From: a virus
Virus record (IMG/VR): IMGVR_UViG_3300006920_000004
Coordinates: 1-64,000 of that record
DNA: 64,000 nucleotides
Reading direction: 5' to 3' (one strand)
The notes under the pieces were generated by a model that worked only from the letters and a program-made list of their open reading frames with translations, was not told the origin of the DNA and searched no databases. A program made the position numbers and the translations under genes. Below, piece after piece: positions 1,562-40,949 of this stretch. Position 1 is the stretch's first letter, and every line of letters begins with the position of its first letter.

Positions 1562-2035
1562 ATGAAAATAAAAACTTGCAACAATTGTAAAAACGATTTT
1601 ACACCACATTTAAGCAGTAAAACTTGTGATGTATGTAAACGTACAGAATATTACCACAAAGCCCAAGAGAGAGCCAAAAACAAGCCAAAAAAGGCTATTA
1701 GAAAAGTAAGTGATAAACAAAGGAGTAGAATAGTGGCTAATAAAGATTATTATGTTCAAGAAATTGCTCGGCATATTGAGGGAAACAAAGGGTTATGCCC
1801 ATGTGAGAACTGTGGTGTTGAAATAATTAATCCTAGTGGAAGAAATGTAAGCCATATTATAGCAGGTTCAGCTAATAGTGCATTGTATCATCACCCTTTA
1901 AATAGATTTATTCTTTGCCATGATTGCGAGAGAATATGGACTAACGAGGATAAGACTAAACTAAAAATCTACCATACTTCCGAAGAGAGAATGATAGATT
2001 TAAAGAATTTTTATTATACTACGATTGTTGTTTAG
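1562..2035 (+). CDS. NinG/HNH-like recombination endonuclease with zinc ribbons
   Basis: 157 aa. The N-terminal CxxC pair (CNNCKNDFTP..CDVC) is a zinc ribbon, followed by a basic linker. The C-terminal half has CPCENCGVEI...SHIIAGSANSALYHHPLNRFILCHDCERIW, with paired cysteines around SHII and LCHDC. This arrangement resembles lambda NinG/Rap and DUF968-type nucleases that cut branched DNA. It lies just after the recombination ATPase and DnaA-like genes and converges with the minus-strand block by a 4-nt overlap. Confidence 0.6.
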   Translation: MKIKTCNNCKNDFTPHLSSKTCDVCKRTEYYHKAQERAKNKPKKAIRKVSDKQRSRIVANKDYYVQEIARHIEGNKGLCPCENCGVEIINPSGRNVSHIIAGSANSALYHHPLNRFILCHDCERIWTNEDKTKLKIYHTSEERMIDLKNFYYTTIVV

Positions 2036-2274
2036 AAGGGTAATTTTTCTTTTATAAATAATATTTTAGTTAATGGGTACTTTTCTAATTTGCTTTCGGC
2101 TTTAAATTTTCGGTTTATAAAATAGCCATAGCAACCGCTATTTAATTGTTTTTTGTAAATTTTTCCGTTGTCATAATTTATCATACCAATATCACTTAAA
2201 ACCAAATTTGTATTTTTAATTCCAGCATATACAATTATAATTGTATCAAGATTTATATGTTGTAAATATTGCAT
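2032..2274 (-). CDS. Hypothetical protein, first open frame of the methyltransferase cassette block
   Basis: 80 aa, no recognised domain; contains short beta-type hydrophobic stretches (DTIIIVYAGI, NLVLSDIGMINYD) and a basic C-terminus. It is read in the same direction as the four methyltransferases and lies directly beyond the half-palindrome at 2283-2318. It could be the product of a further cassette. Confidence 0.5.
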   Translation of the reverse strand: MQYLQHINLDTIIIVYAGIKNTNLVLSDIGMINYDNGKIYKKQLNSGCYGYFINRKFKAESKLEKYPLTKILFIKEKLPF

Positions 2275-2282
2275 TCTTATAC

Positions 2283-2318
2283 ATTTGTTGCGCCAATCGA
2301 CTAGTTATACGCAAGCTG
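2283..2318 (-). repeat. attC-like half-site A, downstream of methyltransferase 1
   Basis: On the minus strand this follows the methyltransferase stop codon and carries the core GCGTATAAC, which matches the ATAAC/GTTAT cores of the other junctions. The second palindrome arm is not recognisable, so this is a degraded or truncated site. Confidence 0.4.
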
Positions 2319-2954
2319 CTACATTCCGTTTTCAAACAAACTGTGTTGCTCATAATCTTTTTTAATTAAAATTTTTCCCACCGCACAATTAAGAATGTGA
2401 AGCCCTAACTCCGAATTAACAGCGTTTCTATCTTCCAAACTTTTGTCGTGGGCGTGTTTTCCAGTTCCTACATATTCTTTCATCATTGTTCCTATTTCGT
2501 TTTTAGGCATTTCAATTTTCGGTATTTTAAAGTTGCTCCAAATAAAGTGCCTACCAATTTGTGTGTATTGTGGCAAAAATGGTTCGTAAAAAGGTATCAC
2601 ATTTTCAACCATCCATAAGCCTTTAAAAAATTGGTTTAAGAATATAATTTCTTGCCACAATTTCATATCTGGATATGTAGGCACTTTTCTTATTGCTTGT
2701 GTAAAATAATTTGTTCGGCTATGAGTTGGGCAAGGTGGTGAAGTCCAAATGATATTAAACCGCTTGTAATTAAGCAATAAGTATTCGTGTGCATCTGCTA
2801 CAATTACAATATCATTCGGGTATCTTCTTTGGTATTCCGCAGCAACTTTAGGATTAATTTCAACGGCTGTAATTTCGTATTCATCACCCCAAAGCTCTCG
2901 GTTTCCACCAATGCCACAATACAGGTTTAATATTTTAATTTTTTCTATTTCCAC
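2319..2954 (-). CDS. DNA cytosine-5 methyltransferase
   Basis: 211 aa from a GTG start. Motif I is LYCGIGGN (11-18), the catalytic motif IV is SPPC with Cys75, and motif VI is ENV at 117-119. It methylates cytosine C5 in DNA using AdoMet; the length is short for the family, leaving little room for a target recognition domain. The last residues (KKDYExxSLF) are nearly the same as those of the unrelated methyltransferase ending at 3856, which suggests a shared cassette tail. No restriction enzyme is adjacent, so a protective or regulatory role is likely. Confidence 0.85.
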   Translation of the reverse strand: MEIEKIKILNLYCGIGGNRELWGDEYEITAVEINPKVAAEYQRRYPNDIVIVADAHEYLLLNYKRFNIIWTSPPCPTHSRTNYFTQAIRKVPTYPDMKLWQEIIFLNQFFKGLWMVENVIPFYEPFLPQYTQIGRHFIWSNFKIPKIEMPKNEIGTMMKEYVGTGKHAHDKSLEDRNAVNSELGLHILNCAVGKILIKKDYEQHSLFENGM

Positions 2955-3021
2955 GCTTCAAAATTTTAATTAAAAAAGGTTTTCGTTTTCAAATGAGCTT
3001 TACCATTAACAACCGCAGCCA

Positions 3022-3092
3022 GCTTATAACAGCACCTAACCAAAATTTTTGCGAAAAGCAAAAACTATCGGTTAGCTGCAAAACGTTACCTG
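3022..3092 (-). repeat. attC-like palindrome B between two methyltransferases
   Basis: Imperfect inverted repeat: CTAACC/GGTTAG and TTTTTGC/GCAAAAA arms around a 5-nt loop. The outer cores are TTATAAC on one side and GTTACCTG on the other; one arm has 3 extra bases. Length (about 70 nt), asymmetric bulges and RYYYAAC/GTTRRRY-like ends are the hallmarks of integron attC sites. The stop codon of the downstream gene lies within one core. Confidence 0.5.
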
Positions 3093-3775
3093 CAAGCACT
3101 ACTGAGTGCTTCAAAACATAATTCTCGTGGTATTTTAGATCTCTCATAACTACCTTTTCGCCCCTGCGTTCCTGTCTTGCTTCCTCTCGGTGCAGGTTGG
3201 TGATGGCAGTTTTTATTCCCATTGTGGCAAATGTTTCTCGGCTTCCAAGTTTGGCTATTAGTCCAAATATCAGTTGGCTTTGCTCTATCATCTCCATATT
3301 GGCAATACCATATTGTGTGCCTTTTTAACTCCTGCATAAACGGCATTTTTCTTAGCATCCCTCGTGGATTCTCAATAAAGTAAACCATATTAGGGTTTAT
3401 CTTTTCCCATTCGTGTATCAGTCCAATAAAATGCCTATTCACATGATCGCACTTTTTAGCATAATCGCTTTTAGGTTCTGTTCCGTTTCTATGTGTGCTT
3501 ATCGCTGCAATAGTGTAGGTAGTGCAATCAGGTGAAGCCCACACAATATCAGGCACAAAAGGCACATCTTCTTTTTTCATTTCGCCAATATCAATAGCCA
3601 AATTAATCCCTTCAAACATTTGCCAGTCAACACTAAAAACTTTCATCCCTAATTCTTCACCAACCTTCCCCACACTTCTACTACCTGCGAAAAGTTCCAG
3701 TAAATTACCCGTGCCAGCAGGTAACAGCACCTTTGCAAAAGTGGGGCTTTCATCTATAAACAAACTTTTCTGCAT
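3086..3775 (-). CDS. C5 cytosine methyltransferase-like protein with SPDC motif
   Basis: 229 aa. Motif I is LLELFAGSRSVG (25-36), the catalytic segment is SPDC with Cys84 (Asp replaces the usual second Pro), and the ENV-type motif is FIENPRG with Glu134. The end has CHNGNKNCHHQPAPRG, with Cys/His that may bind zinc. The SPDC variant occurs in phage cytosine-modifying enzymes, so it may be a divergent C5 methyltransferase. Second cassette of the block; the N-terminus starts 30 nt before motif I, as expected. Confidence 0.75.
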   Translation of the reverse strand: MQKSLFIDESPTFAKVLLPAGTGNLLELFAGSRSVGKVGEELGMKVFSVDWQMFEGINLAIDIGEMKKEDVPFVPDIVWASPDCTTYTIAAISTHRNGTEPKSDYAKKCDHVNRHFIGLIHEWEKINPNMVYFIENPRGMLRKMPFMQELKRHTIWYCQYGDDRAKPTDIWTNSQTWKPRNICHNGNKNCHHQPAPRGSKTGTQGRKGSYERSKIPRELCFEALSSACR

Positions 3776-3813
3776 CTAATTAACATTTTTGGTTTAACAA
3801 ACTTTTATCTTTC

Positions 3814-3850
3814 TAATCCCCACCTTCGCAAAACTGCGGATCGTTATGCG
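3814..3850 (-). repeat. attC-like junction C
   Basis: Short stem CGCA/TGCG with ATCC/GGAT outer pairing, ending in the core CGTTATGCG. The plus-strand text shares CCACCTTCG-CAA--CTG and CGTTAT, in the same order, with junction E (5729-5771). The left core is unclear, so the site may be decayed. Confidence 0.45.
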
Positions 3851-3855
3851 TAATG

Positions 3856-4662
3856 CTACATTTGCCCTCCGAATAAACTTTCCTTCTCATAATCTTTTTT
3901 ATTAAAACTTTTTTCCCTCCCTAAAATAAGAGAAAAATAATCTTGTTCCTTTTCAATTTGTATGTAGTTCCTGCCTGTATTGTAACACGCTTCGCCAGTT
4001 GTTCCACTTCCTGCACAGTTATCCAATATCAAATCATTTTCATTCGTATATGTTTTGATTAGGTATTCAAATAATTCAATCGGCTTTTGTGTCGGGTGCA
4101 ATTTGTGTCCTCCTTCATTTGGAACGCTTTTAAATTCTAAAACGCTTTCAGGGTTTTTAGTTTCGCTATTGTATTGCACCTTTACAATTTCCATTGATAT
4201 ATGACTACTTGTTTTTTTGCCACCACCACGCACAGGCTTTTTGCACATCTTTTTACTTGCCTCACTAAATCGTTCAGTCGGTATTGGATTGTAGTTTGTT
4301 TTACCTTTTGCAAAAACCAGTATGCTTTCGTGGTATCTCAATGGTTGATACTTTGCAGTAGCAAATCCTGTCCCTGTATTTTTTCTCCAAATCCATTCGT
4401 ATTTAAAAAGTTTAGGATTACTCATTACCAAAGCACTTGAAAATGGTTGTGAGGCAGTTAATACTATTGCTCCATTTGGCTTTATCAACCTTTCGTATTC
4501 CTTCCATAGTTGTTCAAATGGTATTATTGTGTCCCATTTACAGGCAGTTGTTCCGTAAGGTAAATCACAAAGTATCATATCAAACATTCCGCTTTCCATT
4601 TGTGGCATTAATTCCATACAATCACCTAAGTAAGTTTTATTTTTTTTAAAAATATTTGCCAC
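3856..4662 (-). CDS. DNA N6-adenine or N4-cytosine methyltransferase (beta-type order)
   Basis: 268 aa from a GTG start. The catalytic motif DLPYG (33-37) comes first, and the AdoMet motif DNCAGSGTTGEA is near the C-terminus, after HPTQKP; this is the beta-class order. GTG at 4662 is chosen over the ATG at 4707 because the leader of the 2319-2954 gene is similar and also ends in GTG at the matching place, and because YLGDCMELM normally lies near the N-terminus. Third cassette; no partner restriction enzyme is visible. Confidence 0.85.
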   Translation of the reverse strand: MANIFKKNKTYLGDCMELMPQMESGMFDMILCDLPYGTTACKWDTIIPFEQLWKEYERLIKPNGAIVLTASQPFSSALVMSNPKLFKYEWIWRKNTGTGFATAKYQPLRYHESILVFAKGKTNYNPIPTERFSEASKKMCKKPVRGGGKKTSSHISMEIVKVQYNSETKNPESVLEFKSVPNEGGHKLHPTQKPIELFEYLIKTYTNENDLILDNCAGSGTTGEACYNTGRNYIQIEKEQDYFSLILGREKSFNKKDYEKESLFGGQM

Positions 4663-4731
4663 CGCTCTAAAAAGTTTTAATAAAAAAGGTTTCCGTTTCC
4701 ATATCAAGTTTATCTAAAATTAACCGCACTA

Positions 4732-4833
4732 CGCATAACACGGTATTTGTGCAAGTTTTGCCATTAACTTTTGTCCTCTGAATTGAGCATTGTGCAAGGC
4801 AAAACCTGACACAAATACCCAACCGTTATAGGC
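4732..4833 (-). repeat. attC-like palindrome D, the most complete site
   Basis: The arms at 4741-4762 and 4798-4825 pair over about 20 bp (blocks TATTTGTG/CACAAATA and GTTTTGCC/GGCAAAAC) with bulges of 1-5 nt on one side only. The outer cores are GCATAAC and GTTATAGGC. The loop is about 35 nt and the total about 100 nt. Asymmetric bulged arms with GTTAT/ATAAC ends fit the attC pattern (R''-L''-loop-L'-R'). Confidence 0.6.
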
Positions 4834-4899
4834 AATAGGGCAGACGTTCTTCGTTTCAACATTTGTGGAAGAAAAAAAGAAAAAAAGCCCACCGCACTT

Positions 4900-5658
4900 T
4901 TAAAATAATTGTGGTTGAGATATTCTAATATTAAGTCGTTTTTCTGCATATTTACATTGTTCTTCTGATAATTCACTTCCTAAATAATTTCGTTTTTCAA
5001 TAATACAAGCATTGGCAGTTGTGCCAGTTCCCATAAAACTATCATAAATTAAATCATTTTCTTTTGTATAAAGTAACAATAGCTTTCTAACCAATTCGGT
5101 TGAGTAGGTTGCTTTATTTAAGTCGGTTGAATTATCATTATTTTTGGCAGTAATAAAGTTAAATACATTTTCATAAATAGCTTGTCCCGTTTCTCTTTCT
5201 TTCAACTTTTGCTTATTGCAGTTAAAAGTATAAAATTCGTCTTTTCTGCAAAAAACATAAATGTATTCAACTATCCTTGTCATTTTGTTATGTGATACGT
5301 TATTTGGTGTTGCCATTTGCTTTTTCCATACAATAATATCAGCTAAAGTAAAATCACTTTTTCTTATCAAATCAGCAATAACCAAACTCATTAAAATAGT
5401 GTTTTCAGTTCCATAACTCATATTGTATAAAACAACTCCATTTGGCTCTAAAATTTTATTATATCCTTTAAAAATATCTAAAGTCCAATCAATATACTCA
5501 TCGTTTGTTTTATCGTCTTTATAAATATCGTAACCTCTATCAGTTGAGTTTGGTCTTATGATATTATAAGGCGGTGAAGTAATTACTGCATTTACTTTAC
5601 CATCTAATCTTTTCATAGTTAGTAAGCAATCTTCGTTGTATATTTTATTTATTTCCAT
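4900..5658 (-). CDS. DNA N4-cytosine/N6-adenine methyltransferase (TSPPY type)
   Basis: 252 aa. It starts with the usual MEINKIYNEDCL and has the catalytic TSPPY at 27-31, which is most common in N4-cytosine methyltransferases. FMGTGTT, the AdoMet-binding loop, is near the C-terminus (YDSFMGTGTTANACI), again beta-class order. Fourth and first-transcribed cassette of the block. The leader upstream is rich in A (AAAGAAAAAAAGAGGG). Confidence 0.85.
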   Translation of the reverse strand: MEINKIYNEDCLLTMKRLDGKVNAVITSPPYNIIRPNSTDRGYDIYKDDKTNDEYIDWTLDIFKGYNKILEPNGVVLYNMSYGTENTILMSLVIADLIRKSDFTLADIIVWKKQMATPNNVSHNKMTRIVEYIYVFCRKDEFYTFNCNKQKLKERETGQAIYENVFNFITAKNNDNSTDLNKATYSTELVRKLLLLYTKENDLIYDSFMGTGTTANACIIEKRNYLGSELSEEQCKYAEKRLNIRISQPQLF

Positions 5659-5680
5659 CCCTCTTTTTTTCTTTTTTTTC

Positions 5681-5732
5681 TTTAGTGCTTCGATTAAACA
5701 TTTGTTTTTATATCAATTTTAGTGCTTCGATT
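5681..5732. repeat. 15-nt direct repeat in front of methyltransferase 4
   Basis: TTTAGTGCTTCGATT occurs exactly at 5681-5695 and again at 5718-5732. The second copy runs into junction E. This may be a duplication made during cassette insertion. Confidence 0.6.
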
Positions 5733-5771
5733 TCGCCACCTTCGGCAATCTGTAAACCGTTATCCTATTGC
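5729..5771 (-). repeat. attC-like junction E
   Basis: GATT-TC-GCC / GGC-AATC form a bulged stem around ACCTTC, followed by AACCGTTATCC. It shares CCACCTTCG and the CTG...CGTTAT block with junction C, and GGCAA..CTG...AACCGTTAT with junction D. Confidence 0.45.
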
Positions 5772-5816
5772 AAATATAAATACATATTGCAATATTCCTA
5801 ATTAATCTTTTTTAAC

Positions 5817-6227
5817 CTATTTTCTTAATTGTCTGCTAAAAAACATTCCTATTTGGTCTTTGTTTACTACTGTAAAATCATGTTCGTTGCAGTATTTTAC
5901 AGCGTGTTGTAAATCTCTACATAACATACTTTCGCTTCCATCGGTTCTTCTTGCTTTTACTTTGCTTGAACCGCTAATTATTTCTATTTTTACGTTCATT
6001 TTACTTGGTTTTGGTTTATATTCTTGAATGAAATTTTTAATTGGTGCTTTTAAATTACTAATTGTTATCGCTCCTAATGGGTAAGGATTTTTGTCTAGCT
6101 TTATTACTTTTAGTTCAAAACTGTTTGAGTATGTACGTTTTAACTCATTCGCAGATTTCCTCGTTCTTAATTGGAACGAGTTAATCATGCGAAAGTGAGT
6201 TTTGTTTTCCTTTACTACTGCATACAT
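5817..6227 (-). CDS. Hypothetical basic protein
   Basis: 136 aa, basic, with no recognised motif. The second half (VKIEIISGSSKVKARRTDGS..LCRDLQHAVKYC) looks like a small alpha/beta domain. It is the first gene after the methyltransferase block and is separated from the next gene by 73 nt with no clear terminator. Confidence 0.65.
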   Translation of the reverse strand: MYAVVKENKTHFRMINSFQLRTRKSANELKRTYSNSFELKVIKLDKNPYPLGAITISNLKAPIKNFIQEYKPKPSKMNVKIEIISGSSKVKARRTDGSESMLCRDLQHAVKYCNEHDFTVVNKDQIGMFFSRQLRK

Positions 6228-33136: not shown

Positions 33137-33184
33137 AAAATGCCCTCCATGCCTATCAACGATGCACACTTGGAGGGCTTTTTT
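33137..33184 (+). terminator. Terminator after the ferritin-like operon
   Basis: GCCCTCCA (33142-33149) pairs with TGGAGGGC (33171-33178), followed by TTTTTT. Confidence 0.75.
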
Positions 33185-34225: not shown

Positions 34226-37200
34226 ATGCCTTGTAACATAACTTTCACTCCTATTGGAAAAACAGAACCTATAACACTAACAGAACCAGAATACATAGTA
34301 TTTCTTGCAACTCCTGATGAGAATGGAATAACTGAATACCAAAAACTAATTGATAGCGGAATAGACTTACCTCCAATAACCCCACCAAAAGCACCTAAGA
34401 AAGAAAACGCACCAAGTGAGGGAGGGAAGAAACTAATGAGAGGTGTAACAAAACAATTCCTAAAAGAAAACCCTAGCTTAGCAGAAATACTTTCAGAAGA
34501 CGCTATTTACTACGACCAAATGCCTAACAAGCTTTCAGAAGCAGAAGCTAGAAAAATAATCGAAGTAACACCTATTGATTACTTAGAAAAAGGAATAAGA
34601 GATTTAAACAACGGAATGAATGGTGCTGTAAGAAACGTATTAGCACAATTAACAATAAAGGAGTACGATAGGATAGGTAGAAGCCAAGATGCAATAGATT
34701 TAAGAGAATGGCTAATAAAAGCTAATACCGATGCAGGTCAATTCACACAAGCATCGTTTGTAATACCAACTTTAAGTGCAGCAACAGAAGTATTTGCTGT
34801 AAGCCAAGCAATAAAAAAGATTAACCAAGAACGTGCTGAAAAAGATGGCAAACCTAAAAAGATTGCTAAAGAATTTAAAAAAGCTAACAAGGAAGCAGCA
34901 AAAGAAGCAGTAGAAAACGTACAAGGTAAATTAGAAAAATTTAGTCAAGCCCCTAATAGAAAATCGCCAACATACGGTTCTAAGAATAAGTTAGTAACAA
35001 AAGAGAATTACGATAAGTTATTAAAAGACTTAAATAAAATGACTTTTGCTGCTGCACTCCCTGTTCAATTAATACCAATAGGAGTTTATCATATAGAAGC
35101 AGGAACAAGAAACTTTGTAGCATTTAGCGAAGCAGTAATAGAAGCAGTAGGAGAAAAAGTTAAACCATATTTAAAAGACCTTTACAATAAAGCGGTAGAA
35201 CAAGTAGATACAGAAATTAATGAAGCTAGGGGCAAAAAATGGAAAGATAAATTAGATGTAGCATTAGCAAAAGCCGATAAAAAAGGAATTGAAAAAGCAA
35301 TAGCTAGCTTACAGAACGTAGCTAAAGAAGAAGGCTTATGGGGTAAGTATAGAGATATGGCTGCTAAAAGATTAAAGAATATTAGCCTAGAACAAGCAAG
35401 TTCAGACATAAGAGAAAACGCAGCATTAGAAGACTTTACTAACGGGCTTGTAAGAAATATGCAAGCAAAGATTATAGAAGCGTTACCTGCAAGCGAAAGA
35501 ACAAGCAAACCACTAAGAAGTTCAATTGAAGTTATTGGCGATGCTTATAAAAACTTAGATAAATATGCTGACGTATGGGAGAAAACTAAAGCGGAGTTTC
35601 AAGAAAAATATAAAGATAACGAACAAGCATTAGAAGCTATTGACGCTTACTTTGGAGATATATTAGCAACACCATTTAGCCAAAAAGAAATTACTAAAGC
35701 GGTAATAAAAGGACTTAAAGAAGAAGGCGAAACTATTGCAAAAATAGCACAACAACACTATACTGTTTACGATGCAACCAAAAGAACCTTAATAGAAAAG
35801 TTAGTAAAAGAAGCAGGTTTGACAGAAGCACAAGCAAAAGAAATAGGCGAAGCTATAAGTAAAGAATTTGATAGATTAGCACTAGAGAAAAAACAACAAA
35901 TACTAGCAACTATTTTTAGCAAAAAGGAACGTGGTAAAAATCAAGTAAAGAATTTAGAAACAGAGTTAATCAGATTAACAAACTTAGGTGCATTTACTGA
36001 CGATGCTTTAGTGAAAGCTTATGCTGAAAAAATGGGGTGGGCAACATTAACTCCCGAAAATATAAAAGAAATTGAACGATTAGCAAGCATAGTAGAAAGA
36101 ACTGCCGATGGATTAAAGAAAGCAAGTGCTATTGAAGATTTATTAGGATACCAAGCCAAACTTAAAGGAGTATCACTTATTGACGTAATGTTTTCTATAT
36201 GGTACGCAAATTTACTAAGTGGGTATAATACACAGATAGTAAACGCTGCATCGGGATTGTATAATACCCTTTCGGTGTTTGGTGTAGCAGCATTAAGAAG
36301 ACCTAAATCAGTTCCGTTCCTTGTAAATGGTTGGCTGAATGGTATAAAACAAGGTTTTTTTGAAGCCAAAAGCACACTAACAACGGGTTATAGTCCATTA
36401 AGAGGTAGGGTAGAAGTTCCTTCAACATTAGAACTATATCCATTTAAAGGTGGTGATTTTAACCCTGCTAATTATTTAAAATATGTAAGAAGAGTAATGG
36501 CAGCTACCGATGTACTTATAGCAGGTGGACTTAAAGAGATGAGAGCCTATCAATGGGCAAGAATGATGGCGGCAAACGATGGAAAGCTAGAGCCAAACGT
36601 AAACACAAGACAAAGAGCCTTAGAATATTTAAACAAAGATAACGATTCTGTAAATCACGCTAAAGAAACAGCAGCACTTGAATTACAAAAAGAAATAGAA
36701 GATATAAATAACGAGCCTATTAGTCAAAAAGAAAAAGATGCTAAAATAAAAAAAGCAAAGAATGATGAACAAAGACGTGTATTTGAATTAGTTGAAATGG
36801 CTAGAGGTACTGAAATAATAGAAGAAAGTGCCAATTTTGCAGCAAGGTCAACTTTCAATTATAAAACAGAAGGTGCTTTAGGTGGATTAGTAACAAGCAT
36901 TAATAATTTTATAGAGAAAAACAATAGAACAAAACTACTAAAATTTGTAGTTCCTTTTACGACAATTGTAGCAAACGTGGCTAACGAAGCGTTAAACTAT
37001 ACACCTGTTGGATATATAAGAGGAATGGGCAATGGTTCTATTTTAAATATGCCTAGAAAAGATTTTGAGGATATGTCAGAAACAAGACAAGCAGAATTTA
37101 AGGCAGAACTTAAAACAAAAGCATTAATGGGTCTTGCACTAACAACAGCAGTAGCAATGTTAGCAACACTTAAAGGAGATGACGATGACGAGCCGATACT

Positions 37201-38368
37201 AGAAATAACCGCAAACGGAACAGGCGATTATCAGAAAAACGAATTATTAAAAAAAGACGAAGGTTGGCAGCCTTATTCATACCGAGTATGGAATCCTTCA
37301 ACTAAAAAATATGGCGCATGGATTTCATATAGATACACTCCTTTAATAGTAATGTTTTCCCTTATTGGTAATTTAAAAGATTACGAAGCATATAGGAGAG
37401 AAAAACTAACAGATTCGGATTTTACTAAATTTGGAGTAGCAATGACTGCTTCAATGAGAGTATTTTTTGATGCTACATTTTTAGCTTCTTTAAATACATT
37501 TTTAGGTAGTTTATTTAGTGGTGCTACTGTTTCGGAAGATGCAGCAACTAATCTATATAAATCATTAGTAAAAACAGTTAAATCAGCAGTTGTACCTGCC
37601 TTATATACTCAAACAGCAAAAGAAATAGAAGCAGCTTTTAAAATTCCCGTAAAAGAAACAAGATTAAATCCTTTAGGAATGGTTGTGGAAGATATGCCTT
37701 ATTTAAGAAATTACTTTGAGAATAAAATAGATGCGATAGGTAACGAGGTAATTCCTGATACAGATGTATTAGTTTCAGCAGGAGAGGGAAATAAAATAGT
37801 AAAATTACTTGCAGAAAAGAAATCGTTAATAAAACCGCCAGATATAAGAAAAGAAGTTTACTATAACATAAAAGAACAAAAGGATATGGTTATGGATGGT
37901 AAACAATTTAATTTATACGCTCAAACAAGAGGAGGGTTAATATCTAAATTCCTTAACGAAAACTATGAAGAAATAAAAGATTTAGAATTAGGCGAAGCGC
38001 AAAAGTTTATTTCAAATGGTATAACAGAATCTACTAAAATAGCCAAAGATAGAATACAATATAGCGAAAAAGATTATCAAGCAATTGTAGCAGAGAAAGA
38101 ACAAGCGTTTAAGGATAAAATAGAAAATAAAGAAAAGGCAGAAAAAGCGCAAGAGAAATTAGACAGACTAAACAATGTAACAGAAGAAGAAAAAGATTTA
38201 AGAAAAAAAGTTAAGTCAATGTCATTTGAAGATGCTAAACTTAAAATATTAAAACCACTTTTACTTGAATCGAATAGCCCTAGCACTCTTATACAAAGAA
38301 TGAGAAAAGCTAACATTATAACAACATACGAACAAGAACAAGATTTAAGAAAACAATTAAAAAAATAA
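34226..38368 (+). CDS. Giant virion-associated protein, 1380 aa (possible polyvalent protein)
   Basis: Long Ala/Lys/Glu-rich helices fill most of the chain. A segment near residues 650-780 (DVMFSIWYANLLSGYNTQIV; then NYLKYVRRVMAATDVLIAGG) and ARGTEIIEESANFAARSTFN to about 1040, with hydrophobic MGLALTTAVAMLATL, resembles regions I associate with large polyvalent proteins (LPD38-like). The C-terminus is a coiled coil. Inference: packed in the head and ejected, together with the proteins at 25-32 kb. No active site is recognised. Confidence 0.5.
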   Translation: MPCNITFTPIGKTEPITLTEPEYIVFLATPDENGITEYQKLIDSGIDLPPITPPKAPKKENAPSEGGKKLMRGVTKQFLKENPSLAEILSEDAIYYDQMPNKLSEAEARKIIEVTPIDYLEKGIRDLNNGMNGAVRNVLAQLTIKEYDRIGRSQDAIDLREWLIKANTDAGQFTQASFVIPTLSAATEVFAVSQAIKKINQERAEKDGKPKKIAKEFKKANKEAAKEAVENVQGKLEKFSQAPNRKSPTYGSKNKLVTKENYDKLLKDLNKMTFAAALPVQLIPIGVYHIEAGTRNFVAFSEAVIEAVGEKVKPYLKDLYNKAVEQVDTEINEARGKKWKDKLDVALAKADKKGIEKAIASLQNVAKEEGLWGKYRDMAAKRLKNISLEQASSDIRENAALEDFTNGLVRNMQAKIIEALPASERTSKPLRSSIEVIGDAYKNLDKYADVWEKTKAEFQEKYKDNEQALEAIDAYFGDILATPFSQKEITKAVIKGLKEEGETIAKIAQQHYTVYDATKRTLIEKLVKEAGLTEAQAKEIGEAISKEFDRLALEKKQQILATIFSKKERGKNQVKNLETELIRLTNLGAFTDDALVKAYAEKMGWATLTPENIKEIERLASIVERTADGLKKASAIEDLLGYQAKLKGVSLIDVMFSIWYANLLSGYNTQIVNAASGLYNTLSVFGVAALRRPKSVPFLVNGWLNGIKQGFFEAKSTLTTGYSPLRGRVEVPSTLELYPFKGGDFNPANYLKYVRRVMAATDVLIAGGLKEMRAYQWARMMAANDGKLEPNVNTRQRALEYLNKDNDSVNHAKETAALELQKEIEDINNEPISQKEKDAKIKKAKNDEQRRVFELVEMARGTEIIEESANFAARSTFNYKTEGALGGLVTSINNFIEKNNRTKLLKFVVPFTTIVANVANEALNYTPVGYIRGMGNGSILNMPRKDFEDMSETRQAEFKAELKTKALMGLALTTAVAMLATLKGDDDDEPILEITANGTGDYQKNELLKKDEGWQPYSYRVWNPSTKKYGAWISYRYTPLIVMFSLIGNLKDYEAYRREKLTDSDFTKFGVAMTASMRVFFDATFLASLNTFLGSLFSGATVSEDAATNLYKSLVKTVKSAVVPALYTQTAKEIEAAFKIPVKETRLNPLGMVVEDMPYLRNYFENKIDAIGNEVIPDTDVLVSAGEGNKIVKLLAEKKSLIKPPDIRKEVYYNIKEQKDMVMDGKQFNLYAQTRGGLISKFLNENYEEIKDLELGEAQKFISNGITESTKIAKDRIQYSEKDYQAIVAEKEQAFKDKIENKEKAEKAQEKLDRLNNVTEEEKDLRKKVKSMSFEDAKLKILKPLLLESNSPSTLIQRMRKANIITTYEQEQDLRKQLKK

Positions 38369-40866: not shown

Positions 40867-40938
40867 TGCGAGTAGGAGAAGTGGTAACTCACGAGGCTCA
40901 TAACCTTGAGATACTTGGTTCGATTCCAAGATTCGCAA
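40867..40938 (+). tRNA. tRNA with CAT anticodon (Met or Ile2)
   Basis: Acceptor stem TGCGAGT/ATTCGCA (7 bp with one G-T), D stem GAG/CTC, anticodon stem CGAGG/CCTTG with loop CTCATAA (CAT at 40899-40901), T stem CTTGG/CCAAG with loop TTCGATT, discriminator A. CCA is not encoded. The acceptor stem begins T-A rather than the C-A mismatch of an initiator. It could be an elongator Met or an Ile tRNA whose C is modified to lysidine. It has its own promoter and terminator. Confidence 0.9.
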
Positions 40939-40949
40939 CAAATATAAAT

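Follow-up and report, generated by a model that had tools for sequence, protein, structure and literature searches.

Four methyltransferase-type genes lie in tandem on the minus strand near one end of the analysed DNA (hereafter the window), a 64,000-nt stretch of an IMG/VR record (IMGVR_UViG_3300006920_000004) that is linear, 68,109 bases long and may be incomplete. Pfam and PHROG matches bore out this part of the first-pass annotation, an earlier reading of the sequence that had described the block as an integron-like cassette array. MT1 (2319–2954) matches PHROG 363 and carries the motif SPPC, and is probably a C5 enzyme; MT2 (3086–3775) matches PHROG 757; MT3 (3856–4707) and MT4 (4900–5658) are beta-class N-methyltransferases matching N6_N4_Mtase (PF01555) with E values of 3e-30 and 2e-37, respectively. 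MT1 and MT2 matched no Pfam family, and the PHROG families matched by both are DNA-methyltransferase families. A segment of MT3 is 77% identical in Polaribacter phage P12002S, and MT2, used as a query in the genome search, returned two bacterial contigs only, neither sharing a site with the window. The block is edged by an HNH endonuclease gene (1562–2035) on one side and an ORF at 5817–6227 on the other, and its array end is anchored by an 80-aa ORF (2032–2274, minus strand).

The window belongs to a phage of Bacteroidota. Genes for the large subunit of terminase and for a portal protein are present in its record, and the closest terminases are mostly those of phages of Flavobacterium, Cellulophaga and Tenacibaculum. 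The genome also holds, on the plus strand, one tRNA-Met (CAT) gene at 40867–40939 and a 1380-aa protein (34226–38368) matching a DarB-like antirestriction family (PHROG 10089), which may, by this match, be a second anti-restriction device. Searching Rfam at gathering thresholds returned an abiF small-RNA match barely over threshold (33143–33178, plus strand, 37.7 bits) and no attC-like family.

The five junctions of the block, A to E, had all been read as imperfect palindromes, each following a gene. Three of them, all on the minus strand, are full hairpin sites, namely B (3027–3088) and D (4736–4828), both with the TAAC/GTTA cores, and C (3722–3846), which belongs to a long class; A is no palindrome and E has a single arm. 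Site C, formerly placed at 3814–3850, overlaps the first codons of MT2, the start and about 16 codons of which lie within it. With a held-out profile, made from the sites of other phages after excluding homologs of each window site, B, C and D scored 41.3, 66.4 and 55.3, whereas 60 shuffled versions of the 64 kb reached 13.6 at most and the rest of the window −0.7. A covariance model of the phage sites, run over 2000–6000 with filters off, gave 40.9 bits (1e-8), 94.8 bits (E 7e-21) and 50.3 bits (1e-10), respectively; the same model with default Infernal filters found nothing in the window, a filter effect, since the matches appear once the filters are off. Site E (5725–5766, minus strand) is a half-site, consisting of a core and the arm adjoining GTTA at 5759–5762, with the other arm absent; it scored 21.8 with a half-profile (shuffle maximum 8.0) and 17.7 bits (0.002) with the covariance model, and matches one arm of a site in locus L167 at 87%. 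Generic hairpin complementarity alone singled out D, the best such hairpin in the window, and left B and C at background. Random palindromes were considered as a reading of the block and rejected, as was an assembly artefact, several independent contigs concurring.

Site A (2271–2307, minus strand, core 2304–2307) is an attI-like array end and not a hairpin. Read in gene direction, it is TAAC-TAGTCGATTGGCGCAA..GTATAAGAATG, and also TAAC-TAG-TCGATTGG, and its first 8 nt are the first 8 nt of an attI-like motif at some phage recombinase loci (see below). It is kept in relatives, being conserved in L378, L379, L380 and L381 and more weakly in L376 and L382, and all six retain the 80-aa anchor gene directly adjoining an A-like start. 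In a further relative, L238, homology to the window stops at 2307, in the core of site A.

A family of hairpin sites and exchange of units at their cores

Relatives were gathered from viral contigs with three of the methyltransferases and two flanking genes as starting points. TAAC/GTTA-bounded hairpins scoring at least 13 numbered 104 in 39 viral loci, compared with none in shuffles, and 244 hairpin sites lay in 54 of the viral loci examined. The sites belong to a single family whose spacers and cores are constant in layout. These sites have paired R boxes (AAC/GTT), an unpaired central spacer and asymmetric arms, and they have in common with IntI-linked attC the TAAC-G core and the spacer offsets of 5–6/1–3; because the AAC-G core and the spacer asymmetry are common to both, we regard the two kinds of site as related in design. 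Their arms differ markedly: right-arm bulges averaged 0.14 per phage site (n=151) versus 2.08 per IntI-linked site (n=51), and G.T wobbles are found in place of the extrahelical bases. In the window, the one-sided bulges formerly taken as typical of attC are likewise rare, with one in B, none in C and one in D versus about two per IntI-linked site. In addition, 49 of 98 long sites, versus 9.7 expected, contain an ATG whose frame crosses the core and continues in the gene that follows, MT2 being an example of such a site-borne start.

The cargo that could be named by Pfam consists mostly of DNA methyltransferases, together with a PAPS-reductase-like protein and DUF4326, and many unknown proteins are carried as well. 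One 170-kb virus contig (L303 and L304, at 88–116 kb) holds about 40 cassette units, many of them methyltransferases. When the sites are oriented like attC, they lie 5′ of the genes and not 3′ as had been supposed: of the flanking ORFs in phage arrays, 257 are on the same strand and 7 are not, the split in IntI arrays being 5 to 57, and the phage genes thus face opposite to IntI cassette genes. Lone sites of the phage class were also seen in bacterial chromosomes at four loci (L356, L360, L361 and L362), where the genes have the standard integron orientation.

The block behaves like a cassette array, as the first-pass annotation had read it: relatives have different genes between conserved ends, and homology breaks at the cores. 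The MT1 unit (2304–3031) is 88–96% identical in five loci (L081–L085) with different hairpins at both sides; MT2 shows 91–95% identity in L001–L003, the homology covering 3085–3846 only; and MT4 has a 97% identical copy in L155, homologous from 4825, in the core of D, to 5702, which is 57 nt away from a core. In L006, homology to MT2 ends at 3726, inside the MT2 ORF. Altogether, 14 of the 17 homology ends of MT1, MT2 and MT4 copies fall within 3 nt of a core, compared with 8.6% for random positions, and most contigs with such copies have only the cassette in common with the window. The anchor gene stays while the cassettes change, for the anchor-bearing relatives whose arrays are in view hold other cassettes, and in L237 the whole block is replaced by about 31 bases beside a left flank of about 87% identity. 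The relatives do not have fixed, co-linear genes. Of 24 pairs of homologous units matching end to end, 23 have neither flanking hairpin in common; sites of the phage arrays, unlike those of classical cassettes, do not as a rule travel with their cassettes, the exception being MT2, whose 5′ hairpin is common to L001–L003 and travels with the unit. Array exchange is read from comparison of the arrays, no recombination event having been seen directly.

Xer-like recombinases and an attI-like motif beside the arrays

The window genome matched no integron integrase model (TIGR02249), none of 23 related virus records had a match above its cut-off, and no tyrosine recombinase was found in the 68 kb record, confirming the reported lack of an integrase. 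In two array-bearing contigs a tyrosine recombinase directly follows the array. Relatives of one such enzyme (P0002) are present in 21 viral contigs, several of which encode a terminase and are therefore phages, and an array lies upstream of the Xer-like recombinase in 12 of 14 distinct loci with enough upstream sequence; recombinase loci L324 and L331 have no array. At 13 loci a putative attI-like motif, TAACTAnnATATA, intervenes between array and recombinase, 20–59 nt ahead of the start codon of the latter; in many related phages the pattern of the attI-like site is TAAC-TA-nnATATA. The arrays of many related phages start at such a motif beside the recombinase, and the window phage has the attI-like site A only. 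In L312 the motif occurs three times (519, 7967 and 12907), each time after hairpin sites, and several arrays of this contig are apparently served by one recombinase.

The array-associated enzymes are Xer-like simple tyrosine recombinases with two domains, and they do not have IntI's insertion of about 40 residues. Six catalytic residues (R136, K161, H220, R223, H246 and Y255) are invariant in 17 recombinases, and the fold matches XerA, XerH and IntI. In the tree, the phage recombinases split from IntI with full support and form at least two lineages among bacterial Xer-like proteins; the curated model nearest to the recombinase P0001, NF040815, scored 206 bits, under its cut-off of 220. Bacterial relatives of about 40% identity mostly have no arrays and show scattered sites in the standard orientation, and the isolated phages Freya and Ingeline encode distant relatives (36%) and no arrays. 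One bacterial genome (locus L352 in G105) encodes a 49% identical recombinase; the attI-like motif follows a probable C5-methyltransferase gene there, no hairpin site is present, and the locus is probably a prophage. The array-type recombinase was absent from 16 other records searched, nearly all of them array-bearing and some of them fragments, and the window record has none either, so that these arrays must either be served in trans or have become frozen.

Candidate systems behind the exchange

The first-pass annotation had suggested that the block may have been captured from a host integron. Such an origin, as a classical CALIN (a cassette cluster without an integrase) that came from an IntI integron of the host and is worked by the host's IntI, has points in its favour. 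Clusters of attC sites with methyltransferases and without an integrase, including the methyltransferase cassettes of Polaribacter phage P12002L, are described in virulent phages by Qi et al. 2023 (PMC9892861), and a Polaribacter phage site recombined there with attI1 via IntI1 in E. coli, so host IntI could act. True IntI is also frequent among genomes of the host phylum, being present in 84 of 296, which permitted a direct comparison; the phage-site profile scores 57 matches in IntI arrays, and a model of IntI-linked attC has some weak matches in phage arrays. Nevertheless, the covariance model of 34 Bacteroidota IntI-linked attC reached at best 10.9 bits (E 1.8) in the window with default filters, which is background, and its matches in phage arrays are weak, 11–36 bits versus mostly 60–100 in IntI arrays. 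Extrahelical bases, mostly missing here, matter to IntI: according to Bouvier et al. 2009, deleting them partly abolishes strand choice and, in reactions that use the top strand, shifts the crossover to the opposite core, and attC × attC recombination by IntI1 or VchIntIA fails when both sites are without them (PMC2727003). The genes are also inverted, and the recombinase that follows the arrays is not an IntI. We consequently regard capture from a host IntI integron as unlikely. What stands of the earlier proposal is a real cassette array; the site layout stands only in part, and the IntI-type origin is not supported. Of the two observations named beforehand as refuting it, one was made, the IntI-type attC model being at background, and the other was not, the relatives having no fixed, co-linear genes.

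A second possibility is that the folded hairpins are substrates of host XerC/XerD, like the attP of CTX phage, and that the recombinases beside the arrays only integrate the phage. Xer proteins are able to use single-stranded hairpins: the attP of the filamentous phage CTX forms when single-stranded DNA folds, and it serves host XerC/XerD as a substrate. It would fit this possibility that the phage recombinases are Xer-like and that many of the phages with arrays encode none themselves. The attI-like motif between array and recombinase in 13 loci speaks against it, as do the three motifs of L312, each after hairpins, by which the motif belongs to the arrays and not to one integration site; we therefore think this possibility quite improbable. 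Finally, a role of the hairpins in transcription termination or RNA processing, with the mosaic made by ordinary or illegitimate recombination, seems barely credible, for although the hairpins are intergenic, phage genomes are mosaic and attC sites may be weak terminators (PMC9892861), breakpoints lie at 4-nt cores while the hairpins differ, so that homology cannot guide them, the sites have fixed spacers and cores in common, half of the long sites carry the next gene's start codon, which is unsuited to a terminator, and the arrays associate with a recombinase.

The explanation that we consider probable assigns the block, as a cassette array, to an integron-like system of Bacteroidota phages with a non-IntI integrase, the window phage taking part in the exchange in trans. 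The window has three full sites (B, C and D) that are not IntI-type attC, and with the integrase absent from its genome, pick-up of cassettes in trans, which the first-pass annotation had offered as an option, is the best reading. Units bounded by GTTA...TAAC, mostly DNA methyltransferases and small unknown proteins, are separated by hairpin sites resembling the bottom strand of integron attC, with the AAC-G core, the 5–6/1–3 nt spacer asymmetry and paired arms. The gene strands would become single-stranded during phage replication and fold into hairpins, so that the folded gene strand would be the recombination substrate, and the Xer-like recombinase beside the arrays, as an integrase acting on the hairpin sites, would swap units between arrays or insert units at the attI-like end. 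Cassettes would be expressed from the phage operon, which passes through the array. For the window phage, another phage, co-infecting or resident, might supply the recombinase, or Xer or IntI of the host might serve instead. From the loss of extrahelical bases we infer that crossovers would take place on either side of the hairpin and that a different enzyme would be needed.

Relation to known systems and meaning for phages

The arrays resemble integrons (IntI, attI, attC) in their tandem single-gene units, in their AAC/GTT-core hairpins with asymmetric spacers, and in an attI-like site that adjoins the gene of a tyrosine recombinase directed away from the array. They differ from integrons in that the phage recombinase has no IntI insertion, extrahelical bases are largely missing from the sites, the genes are inverted, and the hairpins exchange independently of the genes. 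The recombinases are like the simple Xer enzymes XerA, XerC, XerD and XerH in size, catalytic residues and fold. Chromosomal Xer enzymes, however, work at dif, where they resolve dimers, whereas the array-associated ones adjoin hairpin arrays in phages. With CTX attP the arrays would have in common an Xer-type enzyme working on a hairpin of single-stranded DNA, but CTX integrates one phage genome at dif and has no cassette array. The arrays are also like the CALINs of virulent phages, especially of P12002L, likewise a flavobacterial phage with attC-like sites around methyltransferase genes and no IntI (PMC9892861); the phage profile gives the P12002L sites 23.3 and 18.5, more than any shuffle. 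They are treated there as attC sites of integron cassettes, and the available part of that report mentions no Xer-like integrase, adjoining attI-like motif, gene inversion or hairpin turnover. Phage attC arrays were thus already reported in 2023, and the dedicated recombinase, the attI, the site class and the gene orientation appear to be new; no earlier account of a phage recombinase-attI-array system was found in the literature searched, which did not extend to preprints, and the novelty is provisional.

Integrons are the main known device for gathering genes singly, and their IntI is believed to derive from Xer ancestors that acquired an additional element and came to use folded single strands. 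Hairpin cassette arrays with an Xer-like enzyme at their side would reveal another solution, or else an intermediate. We give about an even chance to the wider reading that the arrays are a separate integron-like class with an Xer-type integrase and its own attI, in which genes and hairpins are reshuffled, the pool is private to phages and modification is changed for new hosts. If so, without extrahelical bases crossovers may fall at both ends of a site and genes and hairpins reshuffle independently; the cassette pool would be private to phages because its genes and those of bacterial cassettes point in opposite directions; and methyltransferase cassettes would let a phage alter its DNA modification for new hosts. 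The benefit to the phage would be a changeable set of anti-restriction methylases, and array exchange would explain how phages keep such large, variable methyltransferase sets to escape restriction, while the unit boundaries make it possible to look for anti-defence genes of phages on a large scale.
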